Source: Fimbriimonas ginsengisoli Gsoil 348
GTDB lineage: Bacteria; Armatimonadota; Fimbriimonadia; Fimbriimonadales; Fimbriimonadaceae
DNA length: 64,000 bases
Assembly (NCBI GenBank): GCA_945881865.1
Contig: CAMCVK010000005.1
Span: forward strand, 62,001-126,000
Direction of reading: 5' to 3'
The position numbers were made by a program, and so were the translations under genes. Below are positions 7,256 through 26,839 of this stretch, piece after piece (positions within the stretch are counted from its first letter, which is position 1; the number at the start of each line of letters is the position of its first letter). Below the pieces are notes generated by a model, which was not told where the DNA came from, ran no database searches, and saw only the letters and a list, made by a program, of their open reading frames with translations.

Positions 7256-7263
7256 CGCCCGGG

Positions 7264-7269: not shown

Positions 7270-7298
7270 CCGATCTGACTCCACTCGAACCGCCCGGG

Positions 7299-7304
7299 TA
7301 TCGT
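7299..7304 (+). promoter_or_regulatory. Putative -10 element (TATCGT), PIG-L gene
   Basis: TATCGT ends 8 bases before ATG 7313. Together with TACACT at 7264-7269 on the other strand it would make a compact divergent promoter region. Confidence 0.35.
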
Positions 7305-7312
7305 CCTACCCG

Positions 7313-7975
7313 ATGAACGTTCTTGTGGTTGCTCCCCATCGCGATGACGAAGTTCTTGGTTGCGGCGGCACGATCGCAAAGCACGTCAAGTCCGGCGACA
7401 CCGTCAGCCTCTGCGTCGTTACCACCGGCCTTGCCAGTCTTTTCTCTGCGGAAATGCTGCAAGAGACCGACGACCAGATGCGCGAATCCTGCGCTTACCT
7501 AGGCATCTCGCAGATATTCTCGCTCAACTTCCCGGCACCGCGAACCGACCTTGAACCCAAGCACCGGGTGGCAGACGAGATTCGAAAAGTTATCCTGGAA
7601 ACGAAAGCGGAGACGATTTATCTTCCGCACCCCGGAGATCTTCACTTTGAGCACGCGATCGTTTTTCGCGCCGGACTGGTCGCCGGACGGCCGGTTCCGG
7701 GCTCGCCGGTGAAGAACATTTACGTTTACGAGACTCTAAGCGAGACCGACTGGGCACCCGCCATGCCGCACGAAGCGTTTCTGCCGACCCGATTCGTGGA
7801 CATTACCGACACGCTCGAAGACAAGATTGCCGCGATGGGCAAGTACAAGGCCCAGTTGAAACCGGCGCCAAGTGCTCGCTCGCTAGAATCGCTCCGCGCA
7901 TTGGCCACCCTTCGCGGCGGCACCGTTGGCGTCTTGGCCGCAGAAGCCTTTATGGTGATGCGGGAAATCGCTTAG
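7313..7975 (+). CDS. PIG-L/LmbE family deacetylase
   Basis: This 220-residue protein belongs to the PIG-L/LmbE zinc-dependent N-acetylglucosamine deacetylase family. The metal-site motif is PHRDDEVLGCGG at residues 8-19, with R in place of the usual P of PHPDDE. The second metal motif, PHPGDLHFEH, spans residues 105-114. Family members remove acetyl from GlcNAc-linked lipids or sugars; in EPS loci they may act on a nucleotide sugar or lipid-linked intermediate. Start at 7313 was chosen because the conserved N-terminus begins there and TATCGT lies 8 bases upstream; the open frame extends upstream only as shadow. The 3' end overlaps the convergent heparinase-like gene by 26 bases. Confidence 0.88.
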   Translation: MNVLVVAPHRDDEVLGCGGTIAKHVKSGDTVSLCVVTTGLASLFSAEMLQETDDQMRESCAYLGISQIFSLNFPAPRTDLEPKHRVADEIRKVILETKAETIYLPHPGDLHFEHAIVFRAGLVAGRPVPGSPVKNIYVYETLSETDWAPAMPHEAFLPTRFVDITDTLEDKIAAMGKYKAQLKPAPSARSLESLRALATLRGGTVGVLAAEAFMVMREIA

Positions 7976-9875
7976 TTGCAGCGGCCGCAAGTTCTGCGGC
8001 GACGGCCTCGCTCTCGGCTCCGATCACGGTAACGAAGGTCGCGGACGCTGCCTTCAGGCTGGTTTTCAAAACCGAAATCGGGGAGATTTCTGCGTAGTAC
8101 AGGCTTTCGCCGGTCTCGGGGTAATTCGTTTCTCCGGCGAGAAGAATAGTTTCGCCGGCTTCGGCAAACACTTGTACCGCGACCGGCCCGTTGGCTCGCC
8201 TGCCTTCAAGCGTCCAGTTTGTTCCTGCGAGGCGCCATCGGAGGACGATGTCAACCGGCTCCGTGCCGCCGGTGATCGAATCGGAAACCACCCAGACGTC
8301 GCCAAAAACTTCGATTCGGCGGCGATGGACCACCCCAAACCGTTTCTGGTAGCCGTAGTGCTCGCCATCAAAAGGCTCCGTTGAGCGAAGCTTCGACTGC
8401 GTCCACTCGCTCCACATGAAGCGGGTTCCCTTCTCCATTTGGCTTTGGCCGTTGATTTCAATCGTCGAGTGCGCAGCCGTTGACTTGAAAAACTCGCCAC
8501 GATTCGTCGCGTCGAAGTACTGGAAGGTGCCGCCGTCGGGCAGCAGGTTTACGCCGTGGTGCCAGAGGTCCAGCGCCAACATGTCGGCGTGGCTCGGGTT
8601 CGTTTTGAACGAGTGGCAGCGAACGACGCCGTAGCTGTTCTCGCCGCGAACCACGTAGTAACCGCCTTCCGTAAAGGCGACGTTCTCAACGGTGCGAATT
8701 GACTTGGATGGCTCGAGACCAAACCAGGCCAGCTCCTCATCCCACGGTCCCGGCTCGTAGGCTCGCTCGCCTGTCAGCGCAACGGTTAGAGATTGAATCA
8801 GCGGTCGATAGTCGAGATAGCCCAGTCCGGTCAGATCGAAAATGTTGGCGCCATCGTTTGCGCCGTAATTTGGCACGCGGCCGGTCTCAGGGTTCTGTAC
8901 GGCACGCAAAAGGTCCAATGCCGCCAACGCACGTTGCTTGACCGCCGCAGGCAACGGATCATTATTCGCGTGGCAGGTGAGCGTGAACAGCAAAATGTCG
9001 CGGAGGGCGACCCGTGTGTAGTTATGCGAGCTTTGGATGTAGGATCCGTCCGCGAGGAACTGCTCGCGAACCTGCTCTTCCATCACGGCACGACCGCGCG
9101 CCCGCCAGCGTGCGCTGTCGGGGTGTGATTTCAAAGCGGTGCCAGCCAGATACAGCCCGGCTGCCTCGCTGAGCGCGTGGTTATTCTTCTGCGCGATCGC
9201 GTAGCCGATGGCAACATCGACTCGACCGGCAAGCGCGGTCACGGCTTTCCAAAGTTTCGTCGTCTGCTCGGCAGTTCCGTCACCAAAAACGCCGATCGCG
9301 AAGATCATCGCCATCATGCGAAGCGAAGACTCCTGGCCACATTTCCAGTTCGGCCCCTGGTTTGGCGGATTCTGCTCGTACCAGCTTTCGAACATCTGCC
9401 AAAACCGCGCGCGGTACTTGTCATCGCCCGATGCGCGCCAGGCGCGCGCTAGGCCGTGGACCCAATCGAACCGCGAGGGTTCCCACACGAACTTTACGTC
9501 GCCCTGCTTTTGGTCAAAGTCCGGAATCTTCGACCAGTGCGCCGTTCCGAAGGTGAATTCGGTGGATGCGCTCCAAAGCCAACGTTCCTGATGCTTGTGC
9601 CAATGGCGACCAAAATACAGTAACTCACCGCCGACGATTCGGTCGCCAAAAGCGATGGCTTCGGCGGAGCGGTGAATCTCTAGGTCAGACGGATTCGAGA
9701 ACGGCGACTTGCCGGCGAAGGCACGAACTTGATCCCAAGATATCGCCGGACAGGTGCGCTCGTAGTAGCCATTTCGGGTCCGCATTCGGTGCTGTGCGAA
9801 AAGCCAGAGGTTTTTCGGCCCGAGCTGAATCGCGGCCTTTCCAACCTTGGCGAGACGCCGAAGTTTGCCGATCAT
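7950..9875 (-). CDS. Heparinase II/III-like polysaccharide lyase
   Basis: A 641-residue protein of the heparinase II/III family. Residues about 60-400 form the alpha-toroid N-terminal part (FVWEPSRFDWVHGLARAW, KNNHALSEAAGLYLAG, IQSSHNYTRVALRD). The C-terminal beta-sandwich (PF07940 type) contains RCHSFKTNPSHADMLALDLWHHGVN-type residues and a conserved EIN. His and Tyr residues in NNH and SHNYTR are candidate catalytic groups. Family enzymes cleave uronic-acid-containing polysaccharides by beta-elimination. No signal peptide was seen, which is common for members encoded next to bi-domain oxidoreductases in polymer-synthesis loci. The start codon overlaps the upstream stop by one base (TAATG), so it is coupled to the oxidoreductase. 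Confidence 0.85.
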   Translation of the reverse strand: MIGKLRRLAKVGKAAIQLGPKNLWLFAQHRMRTRNGYYERTCPAISWDQVRAFAGKSPFSNPSDLEIHRSAEAIAFGDRIVGGELLYFGRHWHKHQERWLWSASTEFTFGTAHWSKIPDFDQKQGDVKFVWEPSRFDWVHGLARAWRASGDDKYRARFWQMFESWYEQNPPNQGPNWKCGQESSLRMMAMIFAIGVFGDGTAEQTTKLWKAVTALAGRVDVAIGYAIAQKNNHALSEAAGLYLAGTALKSHPDSARWRARGRAVMEEQVREQFLADGSYIQSSHNYTRVALRDILLFTLTCHANNDPLPAAVKQRALAALDLLRAVQNPETGRVPNYGANDGANIFDLTGLGYLDYRPLIQSLTVALTGERAYEPGPWDEELAWFGLEPSKSIRTVENVAFTEGGYYVVRGENSYGVVRCHSFKTNPSHADMLALDLWHHGVNLLPDGGTFQYFDATNRGEFFKSTAAHSTIEINGQSQMEKGTRFMWSEWTQSKLRSTEPFDGEHYGYQKRFGVVHRRRIEVFGDVWVVSDSITGGTEPVDIVLRWRLAGTNWTLEGRRANGPVAVQVFAEAGETILLAGETNYPETGESLYYAEISPISVLKTSLKAASATFVTVIGAESEAVAAELAAAATKRFPASP

Positions 9876-12007
9876 TAGATGCCTCGGATCTGCTCGACCG
9901 CCGTGAAGCAGGCTTCCGTGACTTCGATGATCTCGGAGAACGGAATCGGAGCTGGCTTTCCGGCTTGAATCGCCTCGACGGTGGCGACGAATTCTTCGCG
10001 GTGGCCTTTTTCTTGGCCGCGCGTTTTGAACGTGCCGAGTGCTGGCCAGTTAAAGCCGGTAGTCACGCGGAAGTTATCCATCTGGGCAACCTTTCCGTTC
10101 ACAAAAACTTCGAGCCGCTCCTTGGGGAACGTCTTCGCGCCGCTGGCAAAGTAGAGCACGGTTCCGGTGGAGCCGTCGGCAAACCGCAACGTGATCGTCA
10201 CCTCGTCTTCGATGGCTTGACCGGTTGAGTCTTTAGCGGACGTCGCCGCGACCTCGACGATCGGATGGCCCACGAGGTAGCGAACCAAGTCGATGAAGTG
10301 GCAGCCTTCGCCGATGATGCGACCGCCACCGACCAGCGGGTTCTGCGTCCAGTGGTCGGACGGAATCATGCCCGCGTTAACCGTATAGACAATGCTCTTG
10401 GGCCGGTTCTCGCTGGCGAGAAGCCCCTTCAGCTTCTGGATGTGCGGCGAGAAGCGACGATTGAATCCGAGCATCACGAACGGCGACGGGCTTTCGGCTA
10501 CCGCCAGCTTCACGTCTTCGAGCTCTTCCCGTGAAATCGCGAGCGGCTTCTCGACGAACACTCGCTTCCCGGCGCGAACCGAGCGCGCCACGTAGGCTGC
10601 ATGGCTGTCGTGCCGCGTCGTCACAAAAACGGTCGTGATCTCGGGCGAGCTGAACACCTCATCGGCAGAGCTTGCCACCCTCTCAAAGCCATGCTTCTTC
10701 GCAAGGTGCGCCGCCGTGATGCCGGTGTTGGAAACAATCGTGTGAAGTCTCCCACCCGCCGCCTTCAGGCTTGGCACAAGAATGAGGCCGCTGAAGTTTC
10801 CGGCTCCCAGAACCCCGGCCACCACGTTGGCCGACTTCGGCGCGACCGCCGTCGCCAGCGCAGGAACGCCGACCGAACGGTTCATCAGCTCGGGGCGGTC
10901 GGTCGCTTCCGGATACTGGAGAACGACGCCAAGGGTCTTTCCGCCGAGGCTAGCGTAGGCGGCGATCGCATCGGCAAACGGGGCTCGCTTACTGATGAGC
11001 GTCTCGGTGTCAATTTTCCCGTCTGCGGAGAGGTCGAGGTACGCCTCGAAGTTGCGCTGCGCCGTCCAGCGGACGAAGCCAATCGGGTAATCCAGCCCTC
11101 GGTCCTCGTAGGCTTCCTCGTACCGGCCTGGGCCGTAAGCGCACGAAACCTGGAAGCTGATCTCTTTCTTGTAAAAGTCTTCGCGCTTGATGTTCAGGCC
11201 GATGACGCCGGTCAGCACCACCCGACCGCGCTTGCGGCACATCACCGCCGCCTGGTGAATGACTTCGTCGCTCTTGGTGCTGGCCGTGATCAGCACGCCG
11301 TCAACGCCGCGTCCACGGGAAAACATATCGGCCTCGGCGATTGGATCGCCGCCGGTGGCCAAGCAAACGGTGTGTACGCCAAACTGGCGCGCGATCTCGC
11401 ACTTGGCCGGGTCGAAATCGATGCCCATCACGCGGCAGCCGTTTGCCCGCAGAAGTTGGACCGCGATGAGTCCAATGAGGCCAAGGCCGGTTACCACAAA
11501 AGTCTCGCCGAGGGTTGGCTCGGATAGCCGAACGCCCTGCATCGCCACCGCACCGAGAACCGCGAACGCCGCGTGGTCAAAGGAAACCGAGTCGGGAATC
11601 TTCGCGCAAAGGTTCTCAGAAACAGAAACGACCTCGGCGTGCGGGCCGTTCGAAACGACCCGGTCACCGGGCCGAAATGCGCGAACGTCGTTCCCGACCG
11701 CCAGAACCACGCCCGCGTTGCAGTAACCCAGCGGCACCGGTTGGTCTAGCTTTGCCCGAACGGCTTCCAGCGTCGCCGATAGGCCGTCGGTTTTGATCTT
11801 GTTGAGGACGTCTTTGACACGATCCGGCTGCTTTCGTGCTTTTTCCAGCAGGCTTGCCTTGCCGAAGTCGATGATCATCTTCTCGGTGCCGAGCGACACA
11901 AGCGAAGACTGGCTTGCAATGAGCACTTGGTTGCGGCCGACCGATGGGGTCGGAATGTCGGTGAGAAGTGTTTCACCGTTCCCGAGGTTCTGGATCAGTT
12001 GTTTCAT
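9875..12007 (-). CDS. Bi-domain oxidoreductase (Zn-type ADH + Gfo/Idh/MocA)
   Basis: A natural fusion of 710 residues. Residues 1 to about 370 are a medium-chain zinc-type alcohol dehydrogenase with Rossmann motif TGLGLIG (173-179). Residues about 395-710 are a Gfo/Idh/MocA NAD-dependent oxidoreductase starting with GAGNFSG (401-407) and containing VEKPLA and the catalytic-region EGCHFIDL. Such fusions are known from exopolysaccharide clusters, usually beside a heparinase II/III protein exactly as here, but their reaction is not established; a uronate or amino-sugar oxidation is inferred. A 55-base gap follows the acyltransferase gene upstream; the downstream heparinase-like gene overlaps by one base. 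Confidence 0.87.
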   Translation of the reverse strand: MKQLIQNLGNGETLLTDIPTPSVGRNQVLIASQSSLVSLGTEKMIIDFGKASLLEKARKQPDRVKDVLNKIKTDGLSATLEAVRAKLDQPVPLGYCNAGVVLAVGNDVRAFRPGDRVVSNGPHAEVVSVSENLCAKIPDSVSFDHAAFAVLGAVAMQGVRLSEPTLGETFVVTGLGLIGLIAVQLLRANGCRVMGIDFDPAKCEIARQFGVHTVCLATGGDPIAEADMFSRGRGVDGVLITASTKSDEVIHQAAVMCRKRGRVVLTGVIGLNIKREDFYKKEISFQVSCAYGPGRYEEAYEDRGLDYPIGFVRWTAQRNFEAYLDLSADGKIDTETLISKRAPFADAIAAYASLGGKTLGVVLQYPEATDRPELMNRSVGVPALATAVAPKSANVVAGVLGAGNFSGLILVPSLKAAGGRLHTIVSNTGITAAHLAKKHGFERVASSADEVFSSPEITTVFVTTRHDSHAAYVARSVRAGKRVFVEKPLAISREELEDVKLAVAESPSPFVMLGFNRRFSPHIQKLKGLLASENRPKSIVYTVNAGMIPSDHWTQNPLVGGGRIIGEGCHFIDLVRYLVGHPIVEVAATSAKDSTGQAIEDEVTITLRFADGSTGTVLYFASGAKTFPKERLEVFVNGKVAQMDNFRVTTGFNWPALGTFKTRGQEKGHREEFVATVEAIQAGKPAPIPFSEIIEVTEACFTAVEQIRGI

Positions 12008-12062
12008 CGCAATTCGACCGAAGCAACTCGCCTACGGACATAAAAATGTACCCGAGGGACAG

Positions 12063-13169
12063 CTATTCTGCCGCCGGACGCTTTTGCCGGGGCACAATTC
12101 GGTTTGCAAAATCATTGCCCCACTTAATGAACGGCTGCTCTAGCCAATGGAATGCCGCGACGGACGGGGCGATGGTTCCGACAAGGAAAATCGCAAAGCG
12201 GACCGGGAACGGAATGTCCTGCAGATACTGGAAAGCAAACGTTCGCGCCACGTCGTGGAACAAATAGATGCCGTAGGAGTACTTCGCAATCGTCTGAAAG
12301 ACCCTTGCGGCGGTGCCGTGCGGAAGATCCTGGAGGTACGGCAAAAGCACGCCGAGCGCCAAGCAAATCGGGAAGCCGACCAGGATCTCTCGACCAAATC
12401 GCGTGCTGACGGCCGAGTGCAGCACCACCGTCACCATCAGGAAGATCGGCAGAATCCACCACGGCAGGCTCCGGCGCTTCACCGTGAGGGCAAAGGCGAT
12501 GACCCCCGGAATAAAGCACGGCGCAAACTTGAACATCGAGTGCGTGTAGGCAGCGCCACTCTGTGTTGCCGCAACCCCGAGCGAGGCGACATAGATGACG
12601 CAGATGGCCGCCAGGCCCCATTTTCGGGCCGCGACAAACAGGAACGGCAGCACGAGATACATTTGGATCTCGATGGGCAGGCTCCAAAGCGGGCCGAGCA
12701 CCGACACTTCTGGCTTCGGCCACACGTTCTGGACGAGCAGCAGGTTGCCGACGATAACTTGCGGGGTCACGCCGCCCGTAGAAGCGCCGTCGTAGTTTTG
12801 CGGGTAGATGCCGTACGGCAAGAACCAGAACGCGGCCAACAGCACGACCAGAATCGAGAGCGGATAGATTCGAAAAACTCGCCGGGTGACGAAGGCAGCG
12901 TAGTGCTTAATTGGCGTCGCGTAGGTATCGAATCCCTGCCGCTGAAGGCTGAGCATGAGCACCAATGACGTGTGCACGAAGAATAGCAAAACACCGAACT
13001 TTCCGAACTGGGGCATGCCAAGCGCCTTCTCCAGGGTCGGGTTTTCATAAAGCAGGTGGCGGAAAACCACAAACAGCACCGCGAAGGTTCGAAGCAGGTC
13101 AAGATTCGTCGAATCTTTGCCAAACGATGCGCCCGTGGCTTTTGGGACAGATTTGGCCGCCGGTTGCAT
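12063..13169 (-). CDS. Acyltransferase 3 family membrane protein (OafA/YrhL-like)
   Basis: A 368-residue integral membrane protein with about ten hydrophobic segments, matching acyltransferase family 3 (PF01757). The N-terminal motif LDLLRTFAVLFVVFRHLLYE carries the conserved Arg and His that act on the acyl donor. The segment GPLWSLPIEIQMYLVLPFLF, near the middle, is the family signature. These proteins move acyl groups across the inner membrane and O-acylate surface polysaccharides. TACATT lies 6 bases before ATG 13169 without a Shine-Dalgarno sequence, so this gene may start its own leaderless transcript inside the cluster, 18 bases after the hexapeptide transferase stop. Confidence 0.9.
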   Translation of the reverse strand: MQPAAKSVPKATGASFGKDSTNLDLLRTFAVLFVVFRHLLYENPTLEKALGMPQFGKFGVLLFFVHTSLVLMLSLQRQGFDTYATPIKHYAAFVTRRVFRIYPLSILVVLLAAFWFLPYGIYPQNYDGASTGGVTPQVIVGNLLLVQNVWPKPEVSVLGPLWSLPIEIQMYLVLPFLFVAARKWGLAAICVIYVASLGVAATQSGAAYTHSMFKFAPCFIPGVIAFALTVKRRSLPWWILPIFLMVTVVLHSAVSTRFGREILVGFPICLALGVLLPYLQDLPHGTAARVFQTIAKYSYGIYLFHDVARTFAFQYLQDIPFPVRFAIFLVGTIAPSVAAFHWLEQPFIKWGNDFANRIVPRQKRPAAE

Positions 13170-13175
13170 CGGTTG

Positions 13176-13181
13176 AATGTA
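13176..13181 (-). promoter_or_regulatory. Putative -10 element (TACATT), acyltransferase-3 gene
   Basis: TACATT on the minus strand ends 6 bases before ATG 13169. It lies in the 18-base gap after the preceding gene and may provide internal transcription of the distal part of the cluster. Confidence 0.35.
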
Positions 13182-13187
13182 CCCGCC

Positions 13188-13721
13188 CTACTTTGCCGGT
13201 AGCCCGAGCTTGGCGCGTTGGGCCGCGAGTCCCTTCTTGTGCTCGACGATTTGTTCCGGCGTGAAGCGAGCGCGAATCGGCTTCGCGGGGACGCCGCCGA
13301 CGATCGTATACGGCGGGACGTCTTTGGTCACCACCGCTCCCGAAGCCACGACCGCACCTTCGCCAATCGTCAATCCGTGCATGACGGTTACGCCGTAGCC
13401 AAGCCAGACATCGTCTTCCACCGTGATCGGCAGGTTCGTGTCGCGCCCGGCATGAATCATCGGCAGGCCGACGACATCGATTTTGTGGTCGCCACCGACA
13501 AACGCAACGCGCCCGGCGAGCATCACGAAATCGCCGATGCTGGCCTGACTCTGCAGCCAGCAGTTTGGCCCGATGAAGGAATAGCTACCCAGCTTGACCG
13601 AACCTTTGCGGATACCGACGCCCGGCGCGATGAAGGATCCCTTCCCTACCCACCGCATCTTGAACTTGCGAGCGTAGTAGGCGGTCAGTAGGTCGCGCAG
13701 AATCGCCTTAGGACTAGGCAT
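13188..13721 (-). CDS. Hexapeptide-repeat acetyltransferase (WcaF-like)
   Basis: A 177-residue left-handed beta-helix acyltransferase. Hexapeptide turns begin near residue 30 (GSFIAPGVGIRKGSVKLGS) and continue to about residue 155, ending with the family tail VVTKDVPPYTIVGGVPAKPI. The catalytic His is probably H79 in GGDHKI. It should transfer acetyl (or a related acyl) from CoA to a sugar hydroxyl in the cytoplasm. The start lies within the last 8 bases of the upstream glycosyltransferase gene, so translation is coupled. It is the third hexapeptide acetyltransferase of the locus, suggesting a heavily acetylated polymer. Confidence 0.86.
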   Translation of the reverse strand: MPSPKAILRDLLTAYYARKFKMRWVGKGSFIAPGVGIRKGSVKLGSYSFIGPNCWLQSQASIGDFVMLAGRVAFVGGDHKIDVVGLPMIHAGRDTNLPITVEDDVWLGYGVTVMHGLTIGEGAVVASGAVVTKDVPPYTIVGGVPAKPIRARFTPEQIVEHKKGLAAQRAKLGLPAK

Positions 13722-14922
13722 CGACCGGTTCCTTGGCGAAGAAATCTCGGTTCACCGGGTGCTCGATTTCCACCGGCAAAAGGCCGTCGACGGCTCGCTC
13801 CATGACCAGCCGCTGGTTCTGTGGGCTATAAAACTGGTCGATTCGGTCGTAGCATGCCTGCCGATGCTCCGGCGTGGGCCACGGCGTCGCCGTCCACTTT
13901 CTCAGTACCTTCGCCAGTGCATTCGCATCGCCCTGCTTAAAGAAGGAACCGGTGACGCCCGGGACGACTCCCTCAAATTCGGGGCCCTGAGCGTGCGGAT
14001 TATCGTGCGTGATCAGCGGCGTGCCAAACGAGATCGTGAGCATCGAGAACAGCCCAACCTGGCCCGGCGCGACCGACACGTTCGAGAGCATGAGCAACTT
14101 GCCCAGTGTCTCGTCGTCGAAGCACTTGCCAAAGAACTTGACCGGCAGGTTTCGGCTGGCCGCGTCCTTTTCCAGCGCCTCACGAACCGTGCCATCGCCG
14201 ACGATTAGGACGTTGATCGGATGGCCTTCGGCCCGAAGTTTCTCTGCGGCTTCAAACAGCAGCTCCAGTCGGAACTTGGCTTCGAGGCGTGAAACAAAAA
14301 TGGCGGTTGGCAGGGCCGGGTCGAGTCCGAGCTCTACCTTGTAGGCCTTTAGCTCCTCGTCGGAGAGATTTTCGCGAATCTCTCGGTGCCGCGGCAGGTC
14401 GAGGCTGTTATAGACAACGTACAACTTTTCTGGCTTAAATCCAAGATCCAGCCCGAGCTGGCGGGCGAAATTTCCGTAGAGCAACAGGCCGTTCGCAAGT
14501 TTGTAAAACGTCTTCCTCAGGTCCCGTACGATCCCAGTCTCACGGCGGAGCCAGCCGTTGGTCCAGAAGAAAACCTTCTTTCCCATGAGTCGGGCGAGCG
14601 GCGCGGTGAGCCAAGTGTTTAGATAGTGGAAGTCGCCCAGGTAGATGATGCTGTCAATATCCCGCCGCATGGCGAGTTTGAACAGCCCGGTTTGCACCAT
14701 CACTACCTTGAAAATGAAGCGGCACTTTGTTTGGATGTACCGATCCGGGTTCGGAATCTTTGTCGCGGGAACGCCAATGTTCCGCGGGTCGTGAGCGTCG
14801 CCGGCGAAATAGAAGTCATGCTTCGAGTTGTCGAGCAACTCGCGGATGATGGCACCTCGGTAGTGCGCAAAGAAGTGGTACACGATGACCACTTTTTTTC
14901 TCTTCGCCGGCGTGTTCTCCAT
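13714..14922 (-). CDS. Glycosyltransferase family 4 / group 1
   Basis: This 402-residue protein has the GT-B layout of group 1 glycosyltransferases. An N-terminal acceptor domain starts VVIVYHFFAHYRGAIIRELL. A C-terminal donor domain holds AIFVSRLEAKFRLELLFEAAEKL and VLIVGDGTVREALE. The usual EX7E region is altered (SMLTISFGTPLITHDN), seen in some GT4 subgroups. It should extend the lipid-linked repeat at the inner face of the membrane. AAGGGA lies about 9 bases before the ATG, 13 bases after the wecC-like stop. Donor and acceptor sugars are unknown. Confidence 0.82.
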   Translation of the reverse strand: MENTPAKRKKVVIVYHFFAHYRGAIIRELLDNSKHDFYFAGDAHDPRNIGVPATKIPNPDRYIQTKCRFIFKVVMVQTGLFKLAMRRDIDSIIYLGDFHYLNTWLTAPLARLMGKKVFFWTNGWLRRETGIVRDLRKTFYKLANGLLLYGNFARQLGLDLGFKPEKLYVVYNSLDLPRHREIRENLSDEELKAYKVELGLDPALPTAIFVSRLEAKFRLELLFEAAEKLRAEGHPINVLIVGDGTVREALEKDAASRNLPVKFFGKCFDDETLGKLLMLSNVSVAPGQVGLFSMLTISFGTPLITHDNPHAQGPEFEGVVPGVTGSFFKQGDANALAKVLRKWTATPWPTPEHRQACYDRIDQFYSPQNQRLVMERAVDGLLPVEIEHPVNRDFFAKEPVDA

Positions 14923-14935: not shown

Positions 14936-16159
14936 TTACCGTCCGAAGCCGCAGAAGTCGAGCACGATCTTGTCGTCTGGGTTCATTCCCTTAAACGCAA
15001 GGTGGTTGACCAGGATTACGACGATGTCGCTTTCGTTAAGTCCATCCTCCAGCGTGCGCAGCGGCAACTTGTCGTGCTCGTGAATGTTCGGCTCGACCGC
15101 TAACACGTTCAATGCGGCATTGTTCTCGTCACCGTGCAGCAGGTGCTCGGTGATCTCCAGAGCCGGAGATTCGCGCAGGTCGTCGATGTTGGGCTTAAAC
15201 GCCAGACCAAGGCAAGCAACTACCGGTGCGCGGCCGAGCTTCTCGGTCGCTTCCACGGCGGCGCGACGTACCTGGTCGATAACCCACTCGGTCTTGTGCA
15301 GGTTGACTTCGCGTGCGGTTCGGATCATCCGTGCATTGGTGGGGTCTTGGCTAACGATGAACCAAGGGTCGACGGCGATGCAGTGTCCGCCTACGCCGCA
15401 GCCCGGCTGGAGGATGTTAACGCGCGGATGGCGGTTGGCCAGGGAGATCAGCTCCCAAACGTCGATTCCCAACCCTTCACAGAGGAGCGAGAGCTCGTTC
15501 GCGAACGCAATATTGACGTCGCGGAAGCTGTTCTCCGTGAGCTTGGCCATCTCCGCCGTTCGAGCATCGGAGACGAGCACCGCGCCGGTGACGAACGTTC
15601 GGTAGAAACCGGCAACCTTCTCGGCGGCTTCGGGCGAGAGACCGCCCACGATTCGGTCGTTCTCGCGCAGCTCCGTCATGATGCGGCCCGGAAGCACGCG
15701 CTCGGGGCAGTAGGCAAAGAAGATCTCGCTAACGGCAACGCCCTCGTCGGCGAGAACGCCCCGCACGGCTTCTGTCGTGCCAACCGGCGAAGTTGACTCG
15801 AGGATCACAATGTTCCCGGGTCGAACGAAGGGTGCGATGGCTTTGGCGGCCGACTGAACGTAGCTGATGTCCGGCGTCGGGATTTCGGTGTCTGCGTGGA
15901 ACGGCGTCGGCACACAGATCATGAAGATGTCGGCTTCGGCCGGGACCAACGCCGCCTTCAGCCGGCCGGCCTCGACCGCTTGCCGGACGAATCCATCCAG
16001 GTCCGGTTCGACGATGTGAATGTTTCCGGCATTGATCGTGTCAACAACACGCTCGCTCTTGTCGACGCCGTGGACATCATAGCCTTCTGCGGCCACAATC
16101 GCGGCCGTCGGAAGTCCAATGTAGCCTAAACCAACGATGCATATCTTCCCTTTAGACAT
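14936..16159 (-). CDS. wecC: UDP-N-acetyl-D-mannosamine dehydrogenase (WecC-type)
   Basis: A 407-residue member of the UDP-glucose/GDP-mannose dehydrogenase family. GLGYIG at residues 10-15 binds NAD. The catalytic Cys is C260 in GCGVGGHCIAVDPWF, and K207 and N210 of AKLTENSFRD fit the active site. The PWF after the catalytic motif and the FAYCPERVLPGR segment resemble WecC, which oxidises UDP-ManNAc to UDP-ManNAcA, rather than plain UDP-glucose dehydrogenase. The product, an acidic amino sugar, would suit the lyase and bi-domain oxidoreductase downstream. GAGGGTG just before ATG 16159 serves as a Shine-Dalgarno sequence; an in-frame GTG at 16165 is less likely. Confidence 0.87.
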   Translation of the reverse strand: MSKGKICIVGLGYIGLPTAAIVAAEGYDVHGVDKSERVVDTINAGNIHIVEPDLDGFVRQAVEAGRLKAALVPAEADIFMICVPTPFHADTEIPTPDISYVQSAAKAIAPFVRPGNIVILESTSPVGTTEAVRGVLADEGVAVSEIFFAYCPERVLPGRIMTELRENDRIVGGLSPEAAEKVAGFYRTFVTGAVLVSDARTAEMAKLTENSFRDVNIAFANELSLLCEGLGIDVWELISLANRHPRVNILQPGCGVGGHCIAVDPWFIVSQDPTNARMIRTAREVNLHKTEWVIDQVRRAAVEATEKLGRAPVVACLGLAFKPNIDDLRESPALEITEHLLHGDENNAALNVLAVEPNIHEHDKLPLRTLEDGLNESDIVVILVNHLAFKGMNPDDKIVLDFCGFGR

Positions 16160-16227
16160 ATTCACCCTCTATCGCATTCAGGTGGCGCGTTCCACAAGGA
16201 AACGCCCCACCTTCTACCGAATCCGCG

Positions 16228-19200
16228 CTACTTACTCAGCGCGTTAATCAGACCAATTGTGACCGCCGCGCTGGTAATCGTGCTCGTGGCTTGCTCAAGA
16301 ACGTCTTTCTTGATCTGCAACCGAGCCGCCACTACCTTCGTTGGCACGATAATGTTATCGCCGAGCTCCACCTTCACGCCCGGTCGGTACCGGATAAGCT
16401 GCCCGTTCGCCCGAACGATGATGATCTGGTCCACCGACGCGTCGCCGGCCAATCCACCCGCGAAGTTGATGTAATACAGGATCGACTTACCGGCCGAGAA
16501 CGTGACCGCGCTCGGTCGAAGTACGGCGCCCGTCACAACGACCGTGGTCGGAGTCTCCGGCACGGTGATCACGTCGCCTTCGCGAAGGATGACGTCGCGT
16601 CCGCTGCCCGGGCGGCGAATCGCGCCGGCTAGGTCAACCGCGAGGTTGCCGGAAGGGCTCAAGTCCTTCTCCGTCAGCGGTCGAGCTCGAGTAACTGCCT
16701 CAGCGCCAAGCGCCTTGGCAAGGGCCTGGTCAAGCGATTGTCCCGGCATCACCGAGGAACCGGTAGGCGCGCCGCCACCGCCCAGGATGCTTCCCGTCGA
16801 ACTGACCGAAGCGCCCTGGCTAAATACGATTCTCAGACGATCCAAGTCCGCCTGGGCGCTCGAACGCTTGTATTCGTCCGTTTGAACTTTCTGAATCTGC
16901 TCCAGAACGTCCGGCTGGGCGAACACCTGAGTGTTAGTGCTAAGGAACCGAGGGTCACGGACAAACTCTGTCGCCGGCGGATATGCGGTCGGCATTAGGC
17001 CTCCGGCTCGCTGAATGAGCGAGCTCAAGCGGTCATTCTCGCCCATAAGCTGGTACGGGCCAGGGAACCGAACGGCTCCACCAATCACCACGAGTCGCGG
17101 CGCAGTTCGAATGTCGGATCGTGCGGGAAGGGTGACCTGGTCTCCGGGCTCCAAGATCACGTTCGCAGCATCGTTACCGCTGACCACATCCGCAACGCGG
17201 ATGCGACGTGGCGGGGTGCCGAGCGGTTGGAATACCTTGCCGATTTCGAACGTTTCGCTGGCCGTCGGAATGACGCCACCGGAGAGCTCGATCAGGTCGC
17301 GCAGCCTCATGTTATTCGCACGGATGAACTCGCCCGGTCTTTGCACCGCGCCGGCGATCTTCACCGTTTCGGGAATGCGGAACTTAACCTCACGCTGGTC
17401 GAAAACGCTAAGCCGATCGTTGTTCAACAGCACCAGGTTGTTGGAAGGGTCATTCGCCAGGATCTTGTCCAGATTTAGGATGAGCAACGGACCCTGCGTT
17501 CCGTTCGGGTTTTGGCGCTGTAGATAGAGCTTTTCACGGTAGGTCGAAGGAATCGGACCACCGGCAAGGTTGATGAGGTCGAGCACCGTCATGCCTTCCG
17601 ACCGAACGTACTTGCTCGGATTCTGAACCGCTCCGACAATCTCGACGCCCTGCGTCGGGGTGAAAATTGCCTGAGTCTGGGTGTAGATGGTAAGGCGGTC
17701 TCGCGGTTGTAGAACGAGGTTCTGCTCCGGATCACCAACCAGCACTTTCCGCAGGTCGAGCGTAAGCAAAACTTCCGGAGTGCCGTCGATCTTGAATCGC
17801 TGCAGGAATGCTCTCTCCAAGAAGGCGGTCGGAAGCAGGTTTCCGGTGTAGTTGATGAGGTCTCGGACCGTCATTCCCTCCGACCGGATGTAGGAGCCCG
17901 GGCGTTGAACCGGCCCGATGATGTCGACCTGCTGCTCCGGTAGGAACATGGAGTCGTTGACGGTGAACACGGTAAGCCGGTCCCGCGCCTTGAGCACCAG
18001 GTTGTCGGAAGGATCGCCGTTAAGGACCTTTACGAGGTTTACCGTTACGAGGACCTCGGCCGTGCCGTCGACACGGAACCGTTGGAGGAACGCCTTGTCG
18101 GGATATGCCGTCGGCAACACGTTTCCGGACAGCAGGAGCATGTCGCGGATCGTCATGCCCTCGGAGCGGACAAACGTGCCTGGGCGCTGAACCGCGCCGA
18201 GGATCGAGACCTGCTGCTCTGGCTTGAACATTGCCTCGGCCTCGGTGAAGACGGTAAGGCGGTCTCGCGGAAGCAGGGCGATATTCGTTCCTTCATCGCC
18301 GGCGAGCAACTTTCGAAGGTCGATCGTAAGGAGCACGTCGGCCGTTCCGTCAAGCTTAAAGCGTTGAAGCAGTGCTTTTTCCGGGTACGCAGTTGGCAAC
18401 AGATACCCGGCCGTCTGGACCAGGTCCTTCAGGCGCATGTTAGTCGCCTTGAGGTAGCTGCCCGGTCGTGCAACTGCACCGACGATCTGAACGCTTTGGT
18501 CCGGGATGAAGTTCACATCTCGGATGCTGTTGACGGTGACTCGGTCATCGTCCTTCAGCAAAATGTTTTCTTTAACGTCTCCGGCAAGGACCTTACGCAG
18601 ATTCACACGGATGAGATCGGCCGGGTTGCCGTTCTGGTTAATCCGCTGAACGAAGGCGACGTCCGGATAGGCATCCGGCGTGAGTCCCCGCGCCTGAATC
18701 AGCAGGTCCCTCAGGGTCATGTTGTCGGACCGAATGAAGATTCCTGGCGAGCGGACCGAACCTTGGATGGCAAGTCGGCGGTTGCCGAGGAACTGAAGGT
18801 CCTCGGTTCGGTAAATTACGAGACGGTCGTTTGGCATCAAGACCGGGTTCGCGTTCGAGCCTTTCACAAGCGCCTGACGCAGCTGAACTTTGATCAATGC
18901 CGTCGAACCGTCCGCGTTCAGGCGGAACAGGTCGGCCCGCTCAAGCGCGGCGCCCGGCAGCAATCCGCGAGCGAGCACGACAAGGTCAGAAACGCGCATC
19001 CCTTTGCGGTAGGCGTAGTTTCTCGGCTGGTCGACGGGGCCGATGATGCTAACCTGGTTCGCGATGATCGGACGCACGCTGAAGACGTCGACTACGTCGT
19101 TGTCCTGCAGTGCCGGGTTCCCCAGGCCGCCCTTCTGGAAGAGGTCAACATCGATGAGTCGGCGGTCGATTCCCGGGCGAATGGACTCAACCAAAATTCT

Positions 19201-20334
19201 CTGGCCGATTGCCGAGGGCTTCAGGCCTCCCGAAAGGCGCACGGCGTCTTTCAGCCGTTCGTTGGGCAAAAGCTCATAGGCTGCCGGTCGGCGGACCTCG
19301 CCGTTCACGTAAACGACCTTCTGTCGCGGCATCACCATGATGACGTCGCCGGCTTGCAGCGGAATATCCAGCGCGCCGTTCCCTTTCAGGAGCAGGTCGT
19401 AAAGGTCGATATTTTTCGAAATGCCGTTCGGGCGCTTTAGCTTGATTTGCCGGAAGCTTCCAAACTCGCTGGGACCACCCGCAATGTACATTGCATTAAA
19501 CACGGTCACAACGCTGGGCATCAAATAGGTTCCCGGCGCATAGGCTTCGCCGAGAATCACGATCGGAATGGACCGTAGTTCACCCATCGTGACGGAAACC
19601 GTCACCCCGCGAAGGACATCCTTCATCGCGAGAGACATTTGCTTCTCAAACTGATCCAGGGTCTGGCCACGCGCGATGATCCGCTGCGAGCTTTCCGGAA
19701 CGTCAATGTATCCGCGGCTGTCGATTCTCAGCTTAGATTCGGTCGCATCGCGGGTCGGGCTGCTGTACCGGACAATAACTTCGTCGCCGGCTCCAAGCGT
19801 GTATCGCTGGGGCGTCGGAAGGTTCAGCCCGATGTTTGCCATGTCTGGCGTCACCGGCGTTGCAAGCGCATTAATCGTATCGGGCCCGCCACTCTTTCGG
19901 CGACGAACGTCAACTGCGGCCCGCGCCTCGGCGAAGAATGAGAAACCAAAAACGGGCAGTACCCGCGGCGCCAAGGCGTTCATGCCGACGATGTTTGGAT
20001 TTGCCGTCGGGTCAACGTTTGCCGGAGTCGTCGTGGGCGGATTTGCCTGGACACCCGTGGTGACAACCGGCGGCAAAGTGCCTGGCGGAGGCGTCGTGGC
20101 GGGTGGCTGCGTTGCAGGCGGAGGAGTTGTCGCAGGAGGAGGCGTTGTCGCCGGCGGCGGCGTTGCCCCGCCGTCGGTGCCGCCGGCCGTCTGACCCTGC
20201 AACATGGAGAACGCGACCATTCCTGGGTCAGCGGCGCGAGAAACGTTTGTGCCGATGATCAAGGAAGCAAGAAAAGCCGCGCAAGCGATGACTTTGATTG
20301 CCGTGGAGCGATCCGGAAAGAGCTGCCTTCGCAT
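16228..20334 (-). CDS. Very long polysaccharide export protein with ~11 SLBB-like units
   Basis: About 1368 residues, against roughly 380 for Wza. A signal peptide (basic MRRQLFPDR, then a hydrophobic stretch ending near SRA-AD) has no lipobox Cys. Residues of about 60-100 are Pro/Thr-rich repeats of TPPPAT. A PES domain (PF02563) starts YTLGAGDEVIVRY, followed by about eleven SLBB-like units recognisable by a V-x-I-x-G-x-V-x-R-P-G-x-Y/F core; units in the middle repeat every 94-95 residues. A short coiled segment lies near residues 1110-1150. The C-terminus has a hydrophobic stretch. It probably forms the outer-membrane/periplasmic export channel for the polymer made by the genes downstream. 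ATG 20334 is preferred; GTG/ATG at 20367/20364 is possible. Confidence 0.88.
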   Translation of the reverse strand: MRRQLFPDRSTAIKVIACAAFLASLIIGTNVSRAADPGMVAFSMLQGQTAGGTDGGATPPPATTPPPATTPPPATQPPATTPPPGTLPPVVTTGVQANPPTTTPANVDPTANPNIVGMNALAPRVLPVFGFSFFAEARAAVDVRRRKSGGPDTINALATPVTPDMANIGLNLPTPQRYTLGAGDEVIVRYSSPTRDATESKLRIDSRGYIDVPESSQRIIARGQTLDQFEKQMSLAMKDVLRGVTVSVTMGELRSIPIVILGEAYAPGTYLMPSVVTVFNAMYIAGGPSEFGSFRQIKLKRPNGISKNIDLYDLLLKGNGALDIPLQAGDVIMVMPRQKVVYVNGEVRRPAAYELLPNERLKDAVRLSGGLKPSAIGQRILVESIRPGIDRRLIDVDLFQKGGLGNPALQDNDVVDVFSVRPIIANQVSIIGPVDQPRNYAYRKGMRVSDLVVLARGLLPGAALERADLFRLNADGSTALIKVQLRQALVKGSNANPVLMPNDRLVIYRTEDLQFLGNRRLAIQGSVRSPGIFIRSDNMTLRDLLIQARGLTPDAYPDVAFVQRINQNGNPADLIRVNLRKVLAGDVKENILLKDDDRVTVNSIRDVNFIPDQSVQIVGAVARPGSYLKATNMRLKDLVQTAGYLLPTAYPEKALLQRFKLDGTADVLLTIDLRKLLAGDEGTNIALLPRDRLTVFTEAEAMFKPEQQVSILGAVQRPGTFVRSEGMTIRDMLLLSGNVLPTAYPDKAFLQRFRVDGTAEVLVTVNLVKVLNGDPSDNLVLKARDRLTVFTVNDSMFLPEQQVDIIGPVQRPGSYIRSEGMTVRDLINYTGNLLPTAFLERAFLQRFKIDGTPEVLLTLDLRKVLVGDPEQNLVLQPRDRLTIYTQTQAIFTPTQGVEIVGAVQNPSKYVRSEGMTVLDLINLAGGPIPSTYREKLYLQRQNPNGTQGPLLILNLDKILANDPSNNLVLLNNDRLSVFDQREVKFRIPETVKIAGAVQRPGEFIRANNMRLRDLIELSGGVIPTASETFEIGKVFQPLGTPPRRIRVADVVSGNDAANVILEPGDQVTLPARSDIRTAPRLVVIGGAVRFPGPYQLMGENDRLSSLIQRAGGLMPTAYPPATEFVRDPRFLSTNTQVFAQPDVLEQIQKVQTDEYKRSSAQADLDRLRIVFSQGASVSSTGSILGGGGAPTGSSVMPGQSLDQALAKALGAEAVTRARPLTEKDLSPSGNLAVDLAGAIRRPGSGRDVILREGDVITVPETPTTVVVTGAVLRPSAVTFSAGKSILYYINFAGGLAGDASVDQIIIVRANGQLIRYRPGVKVELGDNIIVPTKVVAARLQIKKDVLEQATSTITSAAVTIGLINALSK
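17330..19060 (-). repeat. Tandem SLBB-unit repeats within the export gene
   Basis: The central part of the export gene consists of diverged tandem units of about 282-285 bases. At protein level each contains a core such as ILGAVQRPGTFVRSEGMT, then LLPTAYPEKA, LQRFKLDGT, LRKLLAGD and a closing DRLTVFT. The units at about 17620, 17905 and 18190 are the most alike. The boundaries given are approximate. Confidence 0.75.
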
Positions 20335-20421: not shown

Positions 20422-21306
20422 CTAGAACTCGAGGGTCAGAAGCGAACCGTCGGAAGTGCCAACGAGTAGCTCCGACCGGTGTTGGAGAAACTTTATCGAC
20501 ACAATGAACCCACGATCTACTGGCACGGAGATTGTTTTTGGTGTTCCCATTGGGTCCAGAATTACCTCGTGCCGGGTTGCTACGGCGCACCTTCCGCCCA
20601 GCGAAGTCTCGACCAGTGGGAGCCCAGCCCCAACCGGAATGCGATGCCGGGTTTCTCCGGTCGCAAGGTCAAGCGTGAACAGCTCGTGGATGCTGCGAAC
20701 GAGCGCCTCGCCCGTCGCAACGCTCAGTGAAAAGCCGTAAACACGCTCCGAGAGGCGGTAGCTCGATACCCGTCGCCCTTCCTGGCTCCAAACCGAAATC
20801 GAGAAGCTGTCGGACCCGACGACAGAGCCGTCGGAGGCGATGGCAAGATGGCGCGGCGCAAACGGGTCTTGCCAGAGCCGTAACAGCTGGCCGCCCTCAT
20901 GCCAAATCGCCATCCCGCCGTTATCGAACGCGGCGGCAACGGTCGTCCCCTGGGCATCTAGACACATCGGAGAAATCACCAGGAACCCAAACGAGCGCTT
21001 GGGAACGTAGCTCCATAGTGTTTCGCCCGTGAGCGCGTCCAGGCAAAGCACCGTATCGGCGGCAGCAACAAAAAGACGATCACCGGTGCCAGAGAACGCT
21101 AGAGACCGCACTCGCTGAGTCGAAGCAACCTTCTGGTTGGTCGAGCCAACGCTAACCGCCCACCTCAACTCGCCATCCGCGTAGAGCCGCAGCCCCATTC
21201 CGGTATCAGACGCGGCGACGACCCGCCCGCCCGCCGTAGTCGCAAGGTGGTTCACGCCAACCACACTGATCAGCTCGGGAAACAGATTTTGGGTAACCAA
21301 GCTCAT
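20422..21306 (-). CDS. Beta-propeller (WD40/PQQ-like) protein
   Basis: A 294-residue protein with no signal peptide or membrane segment. It consists of about six to seven repeats of short beta-strands of the WD40/PQQ type (RSLAFSGTGDRLFVAAADTVLCLDALTGETLW; RHLAIASDGSVVGSDSFSISVWSQEG). No catalytic motif is visible, so it may be a cytoplasmic scaffold or sensor. AGGAAC lies a few bases before the ATG. It is transcribed towards the SLBB export gene, 87 bases upstream of it, and is divergent from cysE. A functional link to export is only inferred. Confidence 0.72.
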   Translation of the reverse strand: MSLVTQNLFPELISVVGVNHLATTAGGRVVAASDTGMGLRLYADGELRWAVSVGSTNQKVASTQRVRSLAFSGTGDRLFVAAADTVLCLDALTGETLWSYVPKRSFGFLVISPMCLDAQGTTVAAAFDNGGMAIWHEGGQLLRLWQDPFAPRHLAIASDGSVVGSDSFSISVWSQEGRRVSSYRLSERVYGFSLSVATGEALVRSIHELFTLDLATGETRHRIPVGAGLPLVETSLGGRCAVATRHEVILDPMGTPKTISVPVDRGFIVSIKFLQHRSELLVGTSDGSLLTLEF

Positions 21307-23710: not shown

Positions 23711-26700
23711 TTACTTGGCTTGCTTCAGGAGGACTTCGATTGCTTTATCCAGTTGGGCGTCCTTGCCCGCGAGGAATTCAATCGGATCGTTCTCGAGGAC
23801 GAAGTCGGGGACAACTCCCATGTTCTCCAGCGAAGAGCCATCCAATCGGTAGACGCCCGTGCTCGGCATTCGGGCGATCGTTCCGTCCACCAGCTGGAGG
23901 CCGTACGTGTAGATCACGTAGCCCGGGGTCGGCATGCCGACGAGGGTGGCCAGCTTGCGGCTCTTCATCGAGTTCGGGAACATTTCCGCGTTCGAGAAGC
24001 TAGTCTGGGCGCACATGACGACCAGCGGGAAGTCGGCGAGTTCGCCCGGTCCCACGATCGGCGACTCATCGCGAACTTGGTAGTACGCGTTCGGCCGTCG
24101 CTCCAGAACGTCGATGATCTGGTCGGCCGTGTTGCCACCGCCGTTGTTGCGAACGTCGATGATCATGCCCTTCTTGCCCTGGCTGTACTGCCAGACCTGC
24201 TGGCGGAACCGAACCAACTCGCCTCCGCCCATGCCGGCGATGTGCACGTAGGTCAGCATGCCGCCGGACTTCTCCTCGACGTACTTCCGTCGAGCACGCA
24301 GCAGATTGTCGAAGGCGATGCCGTTGAACTCGCCGCCGCTGATGGCGCGGTATTTGACTTCCCGAAGGTCGCCTTTCGCGTTTCGAACCGAGAGGGTGAC
24401 CTCGCGGCCGATCTGCTCGTTGAGAACGTCACGGTACAAAGCTTCGTTCGGCGCGACATCCTTGCCGTTGATTTTCAGAACCACGTCACCGGGCTCGAGC
24501 TTGCTCTTGGCGAAGCTGGCCGGGGCGCGTGCCGGGACTTCCTTCACCTTGATGCCAACCCCGTTCCAGGTGGGATCGAATACGAACCCGAGGCTGGCGC
24601 TGCTCTGGCTTCGGGGATTGCCCGGAGCCGGGGAAATCTCGGCATGTGACGCCTCGAGTTCGCCGAGCATCTGGTTCAACACGGTGGCAAACTCGTTTCG
24701 GTGACCCACGCTCGGCAGCAGCTTCTCATATCGAGCGCGAAGACCCGGGAAGTCACGTCCGTGGAAGTTGGCATCGTAGAAGCCGCGGTTGAACTCTCGC
24801 CATAGCTGCTGGAACGCGGCCCGTCGCTCAAGCCGTACGTCTCGCGTCCAGTCGGCGCGGAAGTCGACGGTCGTGAAGCCCGGATTGGGCGAGCGCAGCG
24901 GGAGCGTGTTGATCTTGCCGTCGCGCAGCACCAAGAACGACTTCTGGTCTCCGGCGAGCCGGAAAGCCGCAACGTTGTTATCGCCAGCGTATTTTCGAGC
25001 GTTCTCGCCGCTATAGTCCGCGCGCCAAATGTCTCCGCCGCTCTGGAAGTAAATCGTGCCGTCTTCCGGGTCGCTGGCTAGGTTGCCATCGAGGCCACGA
25101 GAGACGAGCCGACGAATTCGGTACTCAATACCGTCGAAATCGATCTCGACCTTGAGCGGTGCGGTGGGCTTCTTGAACTCCAACACGGCTTCGGAAGCCG
25201 TCGTTTCTTCCTTCTGCAAAGGAAGAATGTAGATGCCGTCGCCGCTTCGGTTACTGCCGAAGTAAAGGTACTTGCCGTCGCTGGACCAGCGCGGAGTGTT
25301 GTGCTGCGCGTTCAGCTGCGTAACGTTCGTTGAGGCACCCGTCGCCACATCGATGACGAAAACGTTGGAACCCGACTCCCAGTAGTAATAGCCGCTGCCG
25401 TTGAGCGTGTCAGCATAGGCCACGTAGCGGCCATCGGGCGAGAACTGATAGTCCACTCCGCGGTTGCCGGGGCGCTTCAAAATCTGCTTCGGCGTGCCGG
25501 CTTCAACCGGAACCACGAACAATCCGCCGTCTTTGCCGGTCGACCAGAAGCTGAGCGACTTCCCGTCCGGAGTGACCGATAGGTTCGTCACGTCGGCGTC
25601 GATCGTCGTGATCGAGACAGGCTTGCCTTCCGGCAATTCTTGACGGTAGAGGCGCTCGGCACCATCTCGGTCGCTGACGAAGAAAATCGCTTTGCCGTCC
25701 GGAGTAAAGGTCGCCTGCTCGTCGGTACCTTCCCAGGTGGTAATCCGCGTGGCGTCGTCCTTGTTCGGGCCCTTGCCCTTCTTCATCGGAACCGTCCAAA
25801 TGTCGCCCCGAACCGTGAAGACGGCCGTTTCGCCCTTGGCGTTAATGTCGAAGTCGGAGACACCGGTCGTAAGAATCAGCCGCTCTTCCAGGCTTGTCTT
25901 GTCGTCTAGGTTTGCCGTTAGCGTAATCGGTTTCGGTTCGCCGTCCGCCGCAACGAAGACCGTGCCGTCGCGCTCGAAGGCGTACGTTTTGGCGTTCGTG
26001 GCGGCGGTGAGGAACCGGACTCCCGCATCGGCAAACTTCGTCAGCTGGGTGGCCTTGCCGTCCGGGCTGAAACGAAACACGTTCGGCGTGTTCTTTTCCG
26101 TGAAGACAACGCGCGGAATCGGCTTGTTCAGGTAGCTGCTGCTGGGTGCCTTCTCGGCTTGCGTCACGGCCATGATGCCGTTCATCGTCCAGCTGGACCA
26201 CAGATGCTGCAACTGGTTGTTCCGAACCGGCGTTCGCTTGCCGGTCGCCAAGTTGTAGGTGTACAGCGCCGCCGCCCCAGAGCCTTCGTATCGGGGGCGG
26301 TTTATTGGGAAGCCCAACCGCGTGTACAAGATCTCGGCGCCGTCGGGCGAGTAGCGTGGCGAACCGATGTTCAGCGGGTCCGAGAAAATGGCCTTGAACC
26401 GACCGCTTTCGACTTCCAGCTCATAGATCGAGTTGTAGACCGTGTCTCGTGAAGAACGTAGCAAGAGCTTCTTGCCGTCTTTCGACCACGCGCTAGCGAC
26501 ATCCGGACCGGAGAAGTAAGTCAACCGACGTGGTTGGCCGCCCTCGGCCGAGACGAGATAGATGTCGTCGTTGCCGTTTCGGTTGCTGGTGAATGCGAGC
26601 GACTTTCCGTCCGGAGACCACAGCGGCTGGTCGTCCATCTCGATGTTCGACGTAAGCGCAACCGCGCGGCCGCCCGAGCTGGGTGCCGCCCAGATGTCGC

Positions 26701-26839
26701 CCTGGTAGCTAAACGCTAGTTGCGAACCGTCGGGACTCAACGCAAGAGATCGCGCGCCAATGAGGGGCGAGGCCGTCTGTCCCGCGAGGGCAAAGGCCGG
26801 CAAGAAGGCGAGGGTGATGCCAAGGGTATGGATACGCAA
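23711..26839 (-). CDS. Secreted Tricorn-like S41 peptidase
   Basis: A 1042-residue protein with a signal peptide (about 1-20, LAGQTASP at the cleavage region). Residues about 25-660 contain TolB/WD40-like propeller blades (SPDGSQLAF, SPDGKSLAFTSNR, TPDGKAIFFVSDRDG). A PDZ domain follows near residues 780-860 (LEPGDVVLKINGKDV), then the S41 peptidase core. The nucleophile is Ser949 or its neighbour in TSFSNAEMF, E1005 lies in SLENMGVVPD, and SH in ELEASHAEIS matches the Tricorn His. It probably degrades oligopeptides in the periplasm. The start is TTG at 26839, with TAACGT 9 bases before it. Its terminator is at 23671-23706. Confidence 0.88.
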   Translation of the reverse strand: MRIHTLGITLAFLPAFALAGQTASPLIGARSLALSPDGSQLAFSYQGDIWAAPSSGGRAVALTSNIEMDDQPLWSPDGKSLAFTSNRNGNDDIYLVSAEGGQPRRLTYFSGPDVASAWSKDGKKLLLRSSRDTVYNSIYELEVESGRFKAIFSDPLNIGSPRYSPDGAEILYTRLGFPINRPRYEGSGAAALYTYNLATGKRTPVRNNQLQHLWSSWTMNGIMAVTQAEKAPSSSYLNKPIPRVVFTEKNTPNVFRFSPDGKATQLTKFADAGVRFLTAATNAKTYAFERDGTVFVAADGEPKPITLTANLDDKTSLEERLILTTGVSDFDINAKGETAVFTVRGDIWTVPMKKGKGPNKDDATRITTWEGTDEQATFTPDGKAIFFVSDRDGAERLYRQELPEGKPVSITTIDADVTNLSVTPDGKSLSFWSTGKDGGLFVVPVEAGTPKQILKRPGNRGVDYQFSPDGRYVAYADTLNGSGYYYWESGSNVFVIDVATGASTNVTQLNAQHNTPRWSSDGKYLYFGSNRSGDGIYILPLQKEETTASEAVLEFKKPTAPLKVEIDFDGIEYRIRRLVSRGLDGNLASDPEDGTIYFQSGGDIWRADYSGENARKYAGDNNVAAFRLAGDQKSFLVLRDGKINTLPLRSPNPGFTTVDFRADWTRDVRLERRAAFQQLWREFNRGFYDANFHGRDFPGLRARYEKLLPSVGHRNEFATVLNQMLGELEASHAEISPAPGNPRSQSSASLGFVFDPTWNGVGIKVKEVPARAPASFAKSKLEPGDVVLKINGKDVAPNEALYRDVLNEQIGREVTLSVRNAKGDLREVKYRAISGGEFNGIAFDNLLRARRKYVEEKSGGMLTYVHIAGMGGGELVRFRQQVWQYSQGKKGMIIDVRNNGGGNTADQIIDVLERRPNAYYQVRDESPIVGPGELADFPLVVMCAQTSFSNAEMFPNSMKSRKLATLVGMPTPGYVIYTYGLQLVDGTIARMPSTGVYRLDGSSLENMGVVPDFVLENDPIEFLAGKDAQLDKAIEVLLKQAK

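Follow-up and report, generated by a model that had tools for sequence, protein, structure and literature searches.

A gene coding a very large outer-membrane polysaccharide export (OPX) protein was characterized in a 64,000-nucleotide stretch of the Fimbriimonas ginsengisoli Gsoil 348 genome (assembly GCA_945881865.1, contig CAMCVK010000005.1, positions 62,001 to 126,000), which is called the window here and whose numbering is used below. The open reading frame (ORF) lies on the minus strand, from 20334 to 16228, and runs for 1,368 codons if it starts at the ATG at 20334, the first plausible one, which is the length given by an earlier sequence-only reading that did not state the strand. A GTG at 20367 provides an alternative start leading to a protein of 1,379 aa. 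The succession of a Poly_export domain (PF02563) and SLBB domains (PF10531) that defines the OPX family is found in this protein.

Domain organization

The amino terminus carries a type I signal peptide (20233–20334; MRRQLF...NVSRA before the cleavage site and A after it) that was read from the sequence. It is followed by the Thr/Pro-rich low-complexity stretch already described in the sequence-only reading (20008–20184), which alignment shows to be variable among relatives. The single match to a loosely defined lipobox is VIAC. Because this motif sits where the hydrophobic stretch begins, the protein probably has no lipobox, as had been proposed. Pfam identifies one Poly_export (PES) domain (residues 184–261; 19585–19818), with 31 bits for a cut-off of 28, and eleven SLBB stretches (PF10531; whole-protein E 1e-82), while SLBB_2 matches ten stretches. 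Poly_export and all eleven SLBB stretches share one uninterrupted frame. The count agrees with the one PES domain and about eleven SLBB-like units predicted before; a domain search returning only two or three SLBB domains, which would have spoken against that prediction, was not the outcome. The unit starts are spaced by 83, 87, 93, 94, 94, 94, 94, 94, 91 and 183 residues, and the period of 94–95 residues assigned earlier to the middle units is matched by starts about 94 residues apart.

SLBB units 1–4 (18499–19572) are the amino-terminal part of a conserved seven-unit core and have their best matches in the same-position units of relatives. Comparison of the units defines units 5–8 (17374–18498; pitch 93–94 residues) as a variable middle block and unit 9 (17101–17373) as a further core unit. 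Units 10 and 11 compose a GfcC-like carboxyl-terminal module (16333–17100), recognized from AlphaFold models and from fold and profile matches, in which a 45-residue helix predicted by AlphaFold (16801–16935) is inserted within unit 10. The last segment (16228–16332) is predicted to be helical, at a predicted local distance difference test (pLDDT) score mostly below 50, and is a possible membrane or outer-membrane contact helix. Wza_C (PF18412) has no match in the protein at E up to 1. An amphipathic carboxyl-terminal helix of the Wza_C type was also sought by hydrophobic moment, for which neither the window protein nor its relatives show an excess over shuffled sequences. A match in PHROGs adds nothing to these assignments. 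An assembly artefact was rejected because the repeat units have diverged in DNA (at most 63% identity, ungapped) and because a relative with 11 units is also present in an independent metagenome-assembled genome (MAG).

The fold of the region from Poly_export to the carboxyl terminus (the last 1,199 residues) was modelled by AlphaFold using 41 relatives. The model features eleven beta-grasp units in a row with a mean pLDDT of 80. Its Poly_export domain and SLBB units 1–2 align to Wza (2w8i) with Z 15.4 over 240 aligned residues and a root-mean-square deviation (rmsd) of 10.3, while its last part matches Escherichia coli GfcC with Z 11.3. The carboxyl-terminal fragment folded alone (pLDDT 83.5; predicted template modelling score, pTM, 0.70) aligns to GfcC (3p42) with Z 11.7 over 165 of 234 residues and rmsd 4.2, and a helical insert interrupts unit 10 in both the window module and GfcC. 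The profile of this fragment retrieves GfcC 3p42 in the PDB (E 1.6e-6) and the direct comparison with GfcC by hhalign reaches 95%. As fold match, PDB profile match and hhalign agree, units 10 and 11 correspond to the pair of beta-grasp domains that makes up a GfcC-like tail.

OPX proteins have been divided into Class 1 (1–14 SLBB domains, then Wza_C), Class 2 (1–6 SLBB domains, followed by GfcC, Wza_C being optional) and Class 3 (1–7 SLBB domains only) (PMC9603273). By its fold, the window protein is most aptly placed in Class 2 (KpsD-type) as an OPX with nine SLBB units ahead of its GfcC-like module, which exceeds the published Class 2 range of one to six, a reported range and not a rule. It has in common with this class Poly_export, tandem SLBB domains, a GfcC-like carboxyl-terminal module, a final helix (here predicted at low confidence) and the Sec/SPI signal, a likeness drawn from the published class description and not from KpsD itself; its 1,368 aa compare with a published Class 2 median of 824 aa. 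The absence of a credible lipobox fits Class 2B, as about 83% of its members carry Sec/SPI signals (PMC9603273). Class 2B also has a helix after GfcC that crosses the outer membrane, a role that the low-confidence terminal helix of the window protein, with its unremarkable hydrophobic moment, may or may not play. The earlier description as an enlarged Wza-type protein stands for the family but not for the carboxyl-terminal end, which is KpsD-like. Poly_export and the first SLBB units fold like those of Wza from E. coli (Class 1; Z 15), but Wza has two SLBB units, a lipoprotein signal and a Wza_C helix, whereas the window protein has eleven units and no lipobox or Wza_C match was found in it. 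The carboxyl-terminal module folds like most of GfcC from the E. coli group 4 capsule operon, with the difference that GfcC is a stand-alone periplasmic protein while the GfcC-like module is here the tail of an OPX protein. Assignment to Class 3, which has only Poly_export and SLBB, was discarded on the profile and fold of this tail. The XrtA/PEP-CTERM export protein label (TIGR03027, NCBIfam) was rejected because its 238 bits are reached only as a sum over 9 repeated stretches and because the only exosortase of the genome is on another contig (C10), away from the giant gene. Size and SLBB number alone are not new, since surveys list 1–14 SLBB domains and OPX lengths from 138 to 1,728 aa (PMC9603273; PMC9601211).

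Relatives and growth of the middle block

Relatives of the giant protein were found by an alignment-based scan of genome contigs; a single-sequence scan gave none. Those that are named belong to Armatimonadota (Fimbriimonadaceae, Chthonomonadales and others), with shorter relatives in Betaproteobacteria, Acidobacteria, Aquificales and other groups. At E 1e-15 or better, 135 of the 291 Armatimonadota genomes searched encode the carboxyl-terminal module, for the most part within ORFs of 900–1,400 aa, and giant OPX relatives of about 950–1,430 aa occur throughout this phylum. The examined relatives mostly have the seven-unit core, a minority reaching 8–11 units. These multi-SLBB OPX proteins have received no name. 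They share the seven-unit core and the carboxyl-terminal module with the window protein, which differs from the seven-unit relatives by four extra middle units and has one of the highest unit counts seen. It is thus not a unique oddity but one of the long representatives of an already known type. The same genome also codes for a 1,071-aa OPX paralogue with 8 units (contig C11; L071:8926–12141) and for an ordinary OPX of 334 aa (contig C6).

Units 1–4 and the last three units of the window protein are most similar to the units at the same position in relatives, and such positional orthologues are about 46–65% identical. Units 5–7 are instead each other's best matches (54–64%). The same mutual-best pattern is found in units 5–7 of the relatives L057 and L081 and in units 5–6 of L079. 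The repeat comparison, proposed earlier as a way to date duplications, finds units 5–7 most alike and points to parallel duplications in L057, L079 and L081. A tree of 141 units, built by a quick method, is consistent with the best matches; many of its forks are weak and it was relied on only jointly with the best-match identities. Because middle units match each other while outer units match relatives by position, several lineages have each expanded the middle block independently and at one shared site, unless old copies were rejuvenated by gene conversion inside a protein, which could imitate recent duplication. Of 111 spacings counted in the middle block, 95 measure 93 or 94 residues, in a set that includes a few odd ones from L148 and L098, whose architectures are atypical. 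This near-constancy argues for a rigid repeat and, together with the fixed ends, fits a rod or tube of adjustable length.

The two atypical proteins show other arrangements. The 1,517-aa OPX of Rectinema subterraneum (L148:9281–13834), in which unit spacings alternate between 228 and 81 residues, represents a different route to OPX enlargement. In a 1,443-aa relative from a Candidatus Poribacteria MAG (L098:9515–13846), two SLBB units, the first of them weakly GfcC_C-like, precede Poly_export and nine follow, an order that resembles the rare Class 2C/2D. Note also that a record titled 'Methanoregulaceae archaeon' (L094) contains a typical Armatimonadota giant OPX, and its public label looks wrong.

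Gene neighbourhood and co-polymerase genes

The giant gene is the first of a series of polysaccharide biosynthesis genes that extends leftward. The first gene downstream, after a gap of 62 bases, codes a UDP-sugar dehydrogenase (14936–16165, minus strand). It is followed by a cluster (373–14922, minus strand) whose Pfam matches include glycosyltransferases, acyltransferase 3, hexapeptide transferases, a DegT aminotransferase, an epimerase, a heparinase II/III-like protein and the zinc-dehydrogenase/Gfo-Idh fusion described below; the plus strand of this region has a PglD/NeuD-like gene and a PIG-L gene. An initiating sugar transferase is found about 20 kb from the giant gene. The product of the cluster is most likely an exopolysaccharide or a capsule. 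Just upstream of the giant gene, a PQQ-type beta-propeller protein is encoded on the minus strand (20422–21306; PF13360). A Wzx-type flippase and a Bac_transf initiating transferase, the second in the genome, are coded near the 8-unit paralogue on contig C11, which is likely the main Wzx/Wzy locus of the genome.

Other genes were recorded in passing. Within the window, all on the minus strand, these are a 710-aa fusion of a zinc-type dehydrogenase and a Gfo/Idh/MocA oxidoreductase (9875–12007) that adjoins the heparinase II/III-like protein, a Tricorn-like protease of 1,042 aa with PD40 propeller, PDZ and S41 peptidase domains (23711–26839), and a 1,186-aa ORF without any Pfam match (39383–42943). 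On contig C5 (about 47–52 kb; L076:3307–7710), 172-aa proteins without a Pfam match alternate in a tandem array of paralogues with proteins of about 205 aa that have a weak Imm11 match, possibly forming an immunity gene array.

A profile search for polysaccharide co-polymerases (PCP) recognized no such gene in the 64-kb window, as reported earlier, nor in the 18 kb next to it. Many seven-unit relatives also have no recognized PCP neighbour. A Wzz-type gene coding 431–436 aa directly follows the giant gene in L057, L061 and L062, whose proteins have 9–11 units, and a Wzz-type gene directly follows the OPX gene in most betaproteobacterial and acidobacterial relatives. In L058 and L059 a divergent Wzz-type gene is about 90 bases away from the OPX gene, and the C11 paralogue has one at a distance of 61 bases (L071:12202–13461). 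In total, four PCP genes occur in the genome: two are on contig C11, one is on C24 and one, of 693 aa, is on C10. On C10 (48848–50201) an exosortase (PF09721, E 1e-48) stands beside the 693-aa Wzz-domain protein, and no OPX was found there. The suggestion made from the sequence that the enlarged protein replaces a separate Wzc found no support: replacement is unlikely because Wzz-type genes adjoin OPX genes in relatives and at the C11 paralogue and because the genome has four PCP genes.

Proposed arrangement across the periplasm

The preferred interpretation, to which a probability of about 0.68 is given, is that the giant protein is an OPX of the Class 2/KpsD kind that forms an oligomer on a Wzz-type co-polymerase, with stacked SLBB layers and a length that varies with its middle block. 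Following export through its Sec signal peptide, several copies would assemble via their Poly_export domains atop the inner-membrane co-polymerase, and the SLBB units would stack in successive layers guiding the polymer across the periplasm. The GfcC-like end and the terminal helix may contact the outer membrane or a porin. Separate duplications of middle units at one site would then make the rod or tube longer or shorter while leaving both ends unchanged. The longer periplasmic tube envisaged in the sequence-only reading is plausible in view of the constant pitch of 93–94 residues and of the beta-grasp fold of each unit, with the oligomer as its conjectural part.

Several observations weigh against this interpretation. 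The whole-chain pTM of 0.33 means that the relative placement of the units is not predicted, so that the monomer model delivers the beta-grasp units but not their stacking. The Pfam GfcC models remain below threshold, with weak scores in 5 of 53 members, the carboxyl-terminal helix has low AlphaFold confidence, and the giant gene's own cluster has no recognized gene for a co-polymerase, Wzx or Wzy. Length is a further difficulty. The Poly_export-SLBB protein WzaB measures about 62 Å (PMC9603273), and simple arithmetic, which is not a model, gives about 31 Å per domain and about 370 Å for 12 stacked domains. Together with the co-polymerase this exceeds most of the measured periplasms (210–442 Å; PMC9603273), which implies a wide periplasm, tilted or flatter layers, or that not all units are stacked. 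The sequence-only reading also raised the possibility of an unusually thick envelope; in a published survey, periplasm thickness and OPX length were not correlated (PMC9603273). A literature search on Armatimonadota envelopes and OPX gave nothing relevant in the library that was covered.

Both the low pTM and the overshoot in length would be accommodated if the units formed no rings and the protein were a flexible polymer-binding tether reaching through the periplasm from the co-polymerase to an outer-membrane porin, comparable to Model 4 of PMC9603273. Extra units would then add binding sites, not tube length, in agreement with the ligand-binding role of SLBB domains (PMC1796856). Flexible linkers usually vary, however, whereas the spacing of the units is almost invariant, and the solved close relative Wza is a ring; a tether of this kind is regarded as rather unlikely. 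Much less probable is a long protein that takes over the co-polymerase's role and bridges the periplasm by itself. The estimated stacked length by itself approaches the whole periplasm and neither the window nor the gene's own cluster has a PCP gene, but the PCP genes of the genome and those adjoining the giant gene in relatives and the 1,071-aa paralogue speak against it, and no inner-membrane anchor was recognized in the protein. The presence of two giant copies in one genome and the different unit numbers of close relatives could also be explained if the protein had arisen as a copy of the C11 paralogue, no longer worked as an exporter and, with selection relaxed, had a neutrally drifting repeat number. 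This is the least credible alternative, given the intact ORF, the conserved pitch, the identity kept by positional orthologues and the fact that the gene leads a polysaccharide cluster of its own.

A stacked OPX oligomer would bear on a wider question. The path of the polymer between co-polymerase and outer membrane is debated, about 100 Å being unaccounted for in Myxococcus xanthus, and stacked OPX layers have been proposed as one answer to that gap (PMC9603273). A family whose SLBB layers are covalently linked and vary from 7 to 11 between relatives would make the stacked-layer model testable with natural variants, and deletion of whole units would offer a further way. A bolder and more doubtful proposal is that these proteins are natural length-tuned export tubes, whose fixed ends dock on the co-polymerase and the outer membrane and which gain or lose entire layers of 94 residues in mid-protein. 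If so, each lineage would have a number of layers suited to its periplasm or its polymer, and the longest members would form an unbroken conduit through almost all of the periplasm. The interest of the family lies in this combination of fixed ends and a separately amplified middle, which provides natural length variants for the question of how the envelope is bridged.

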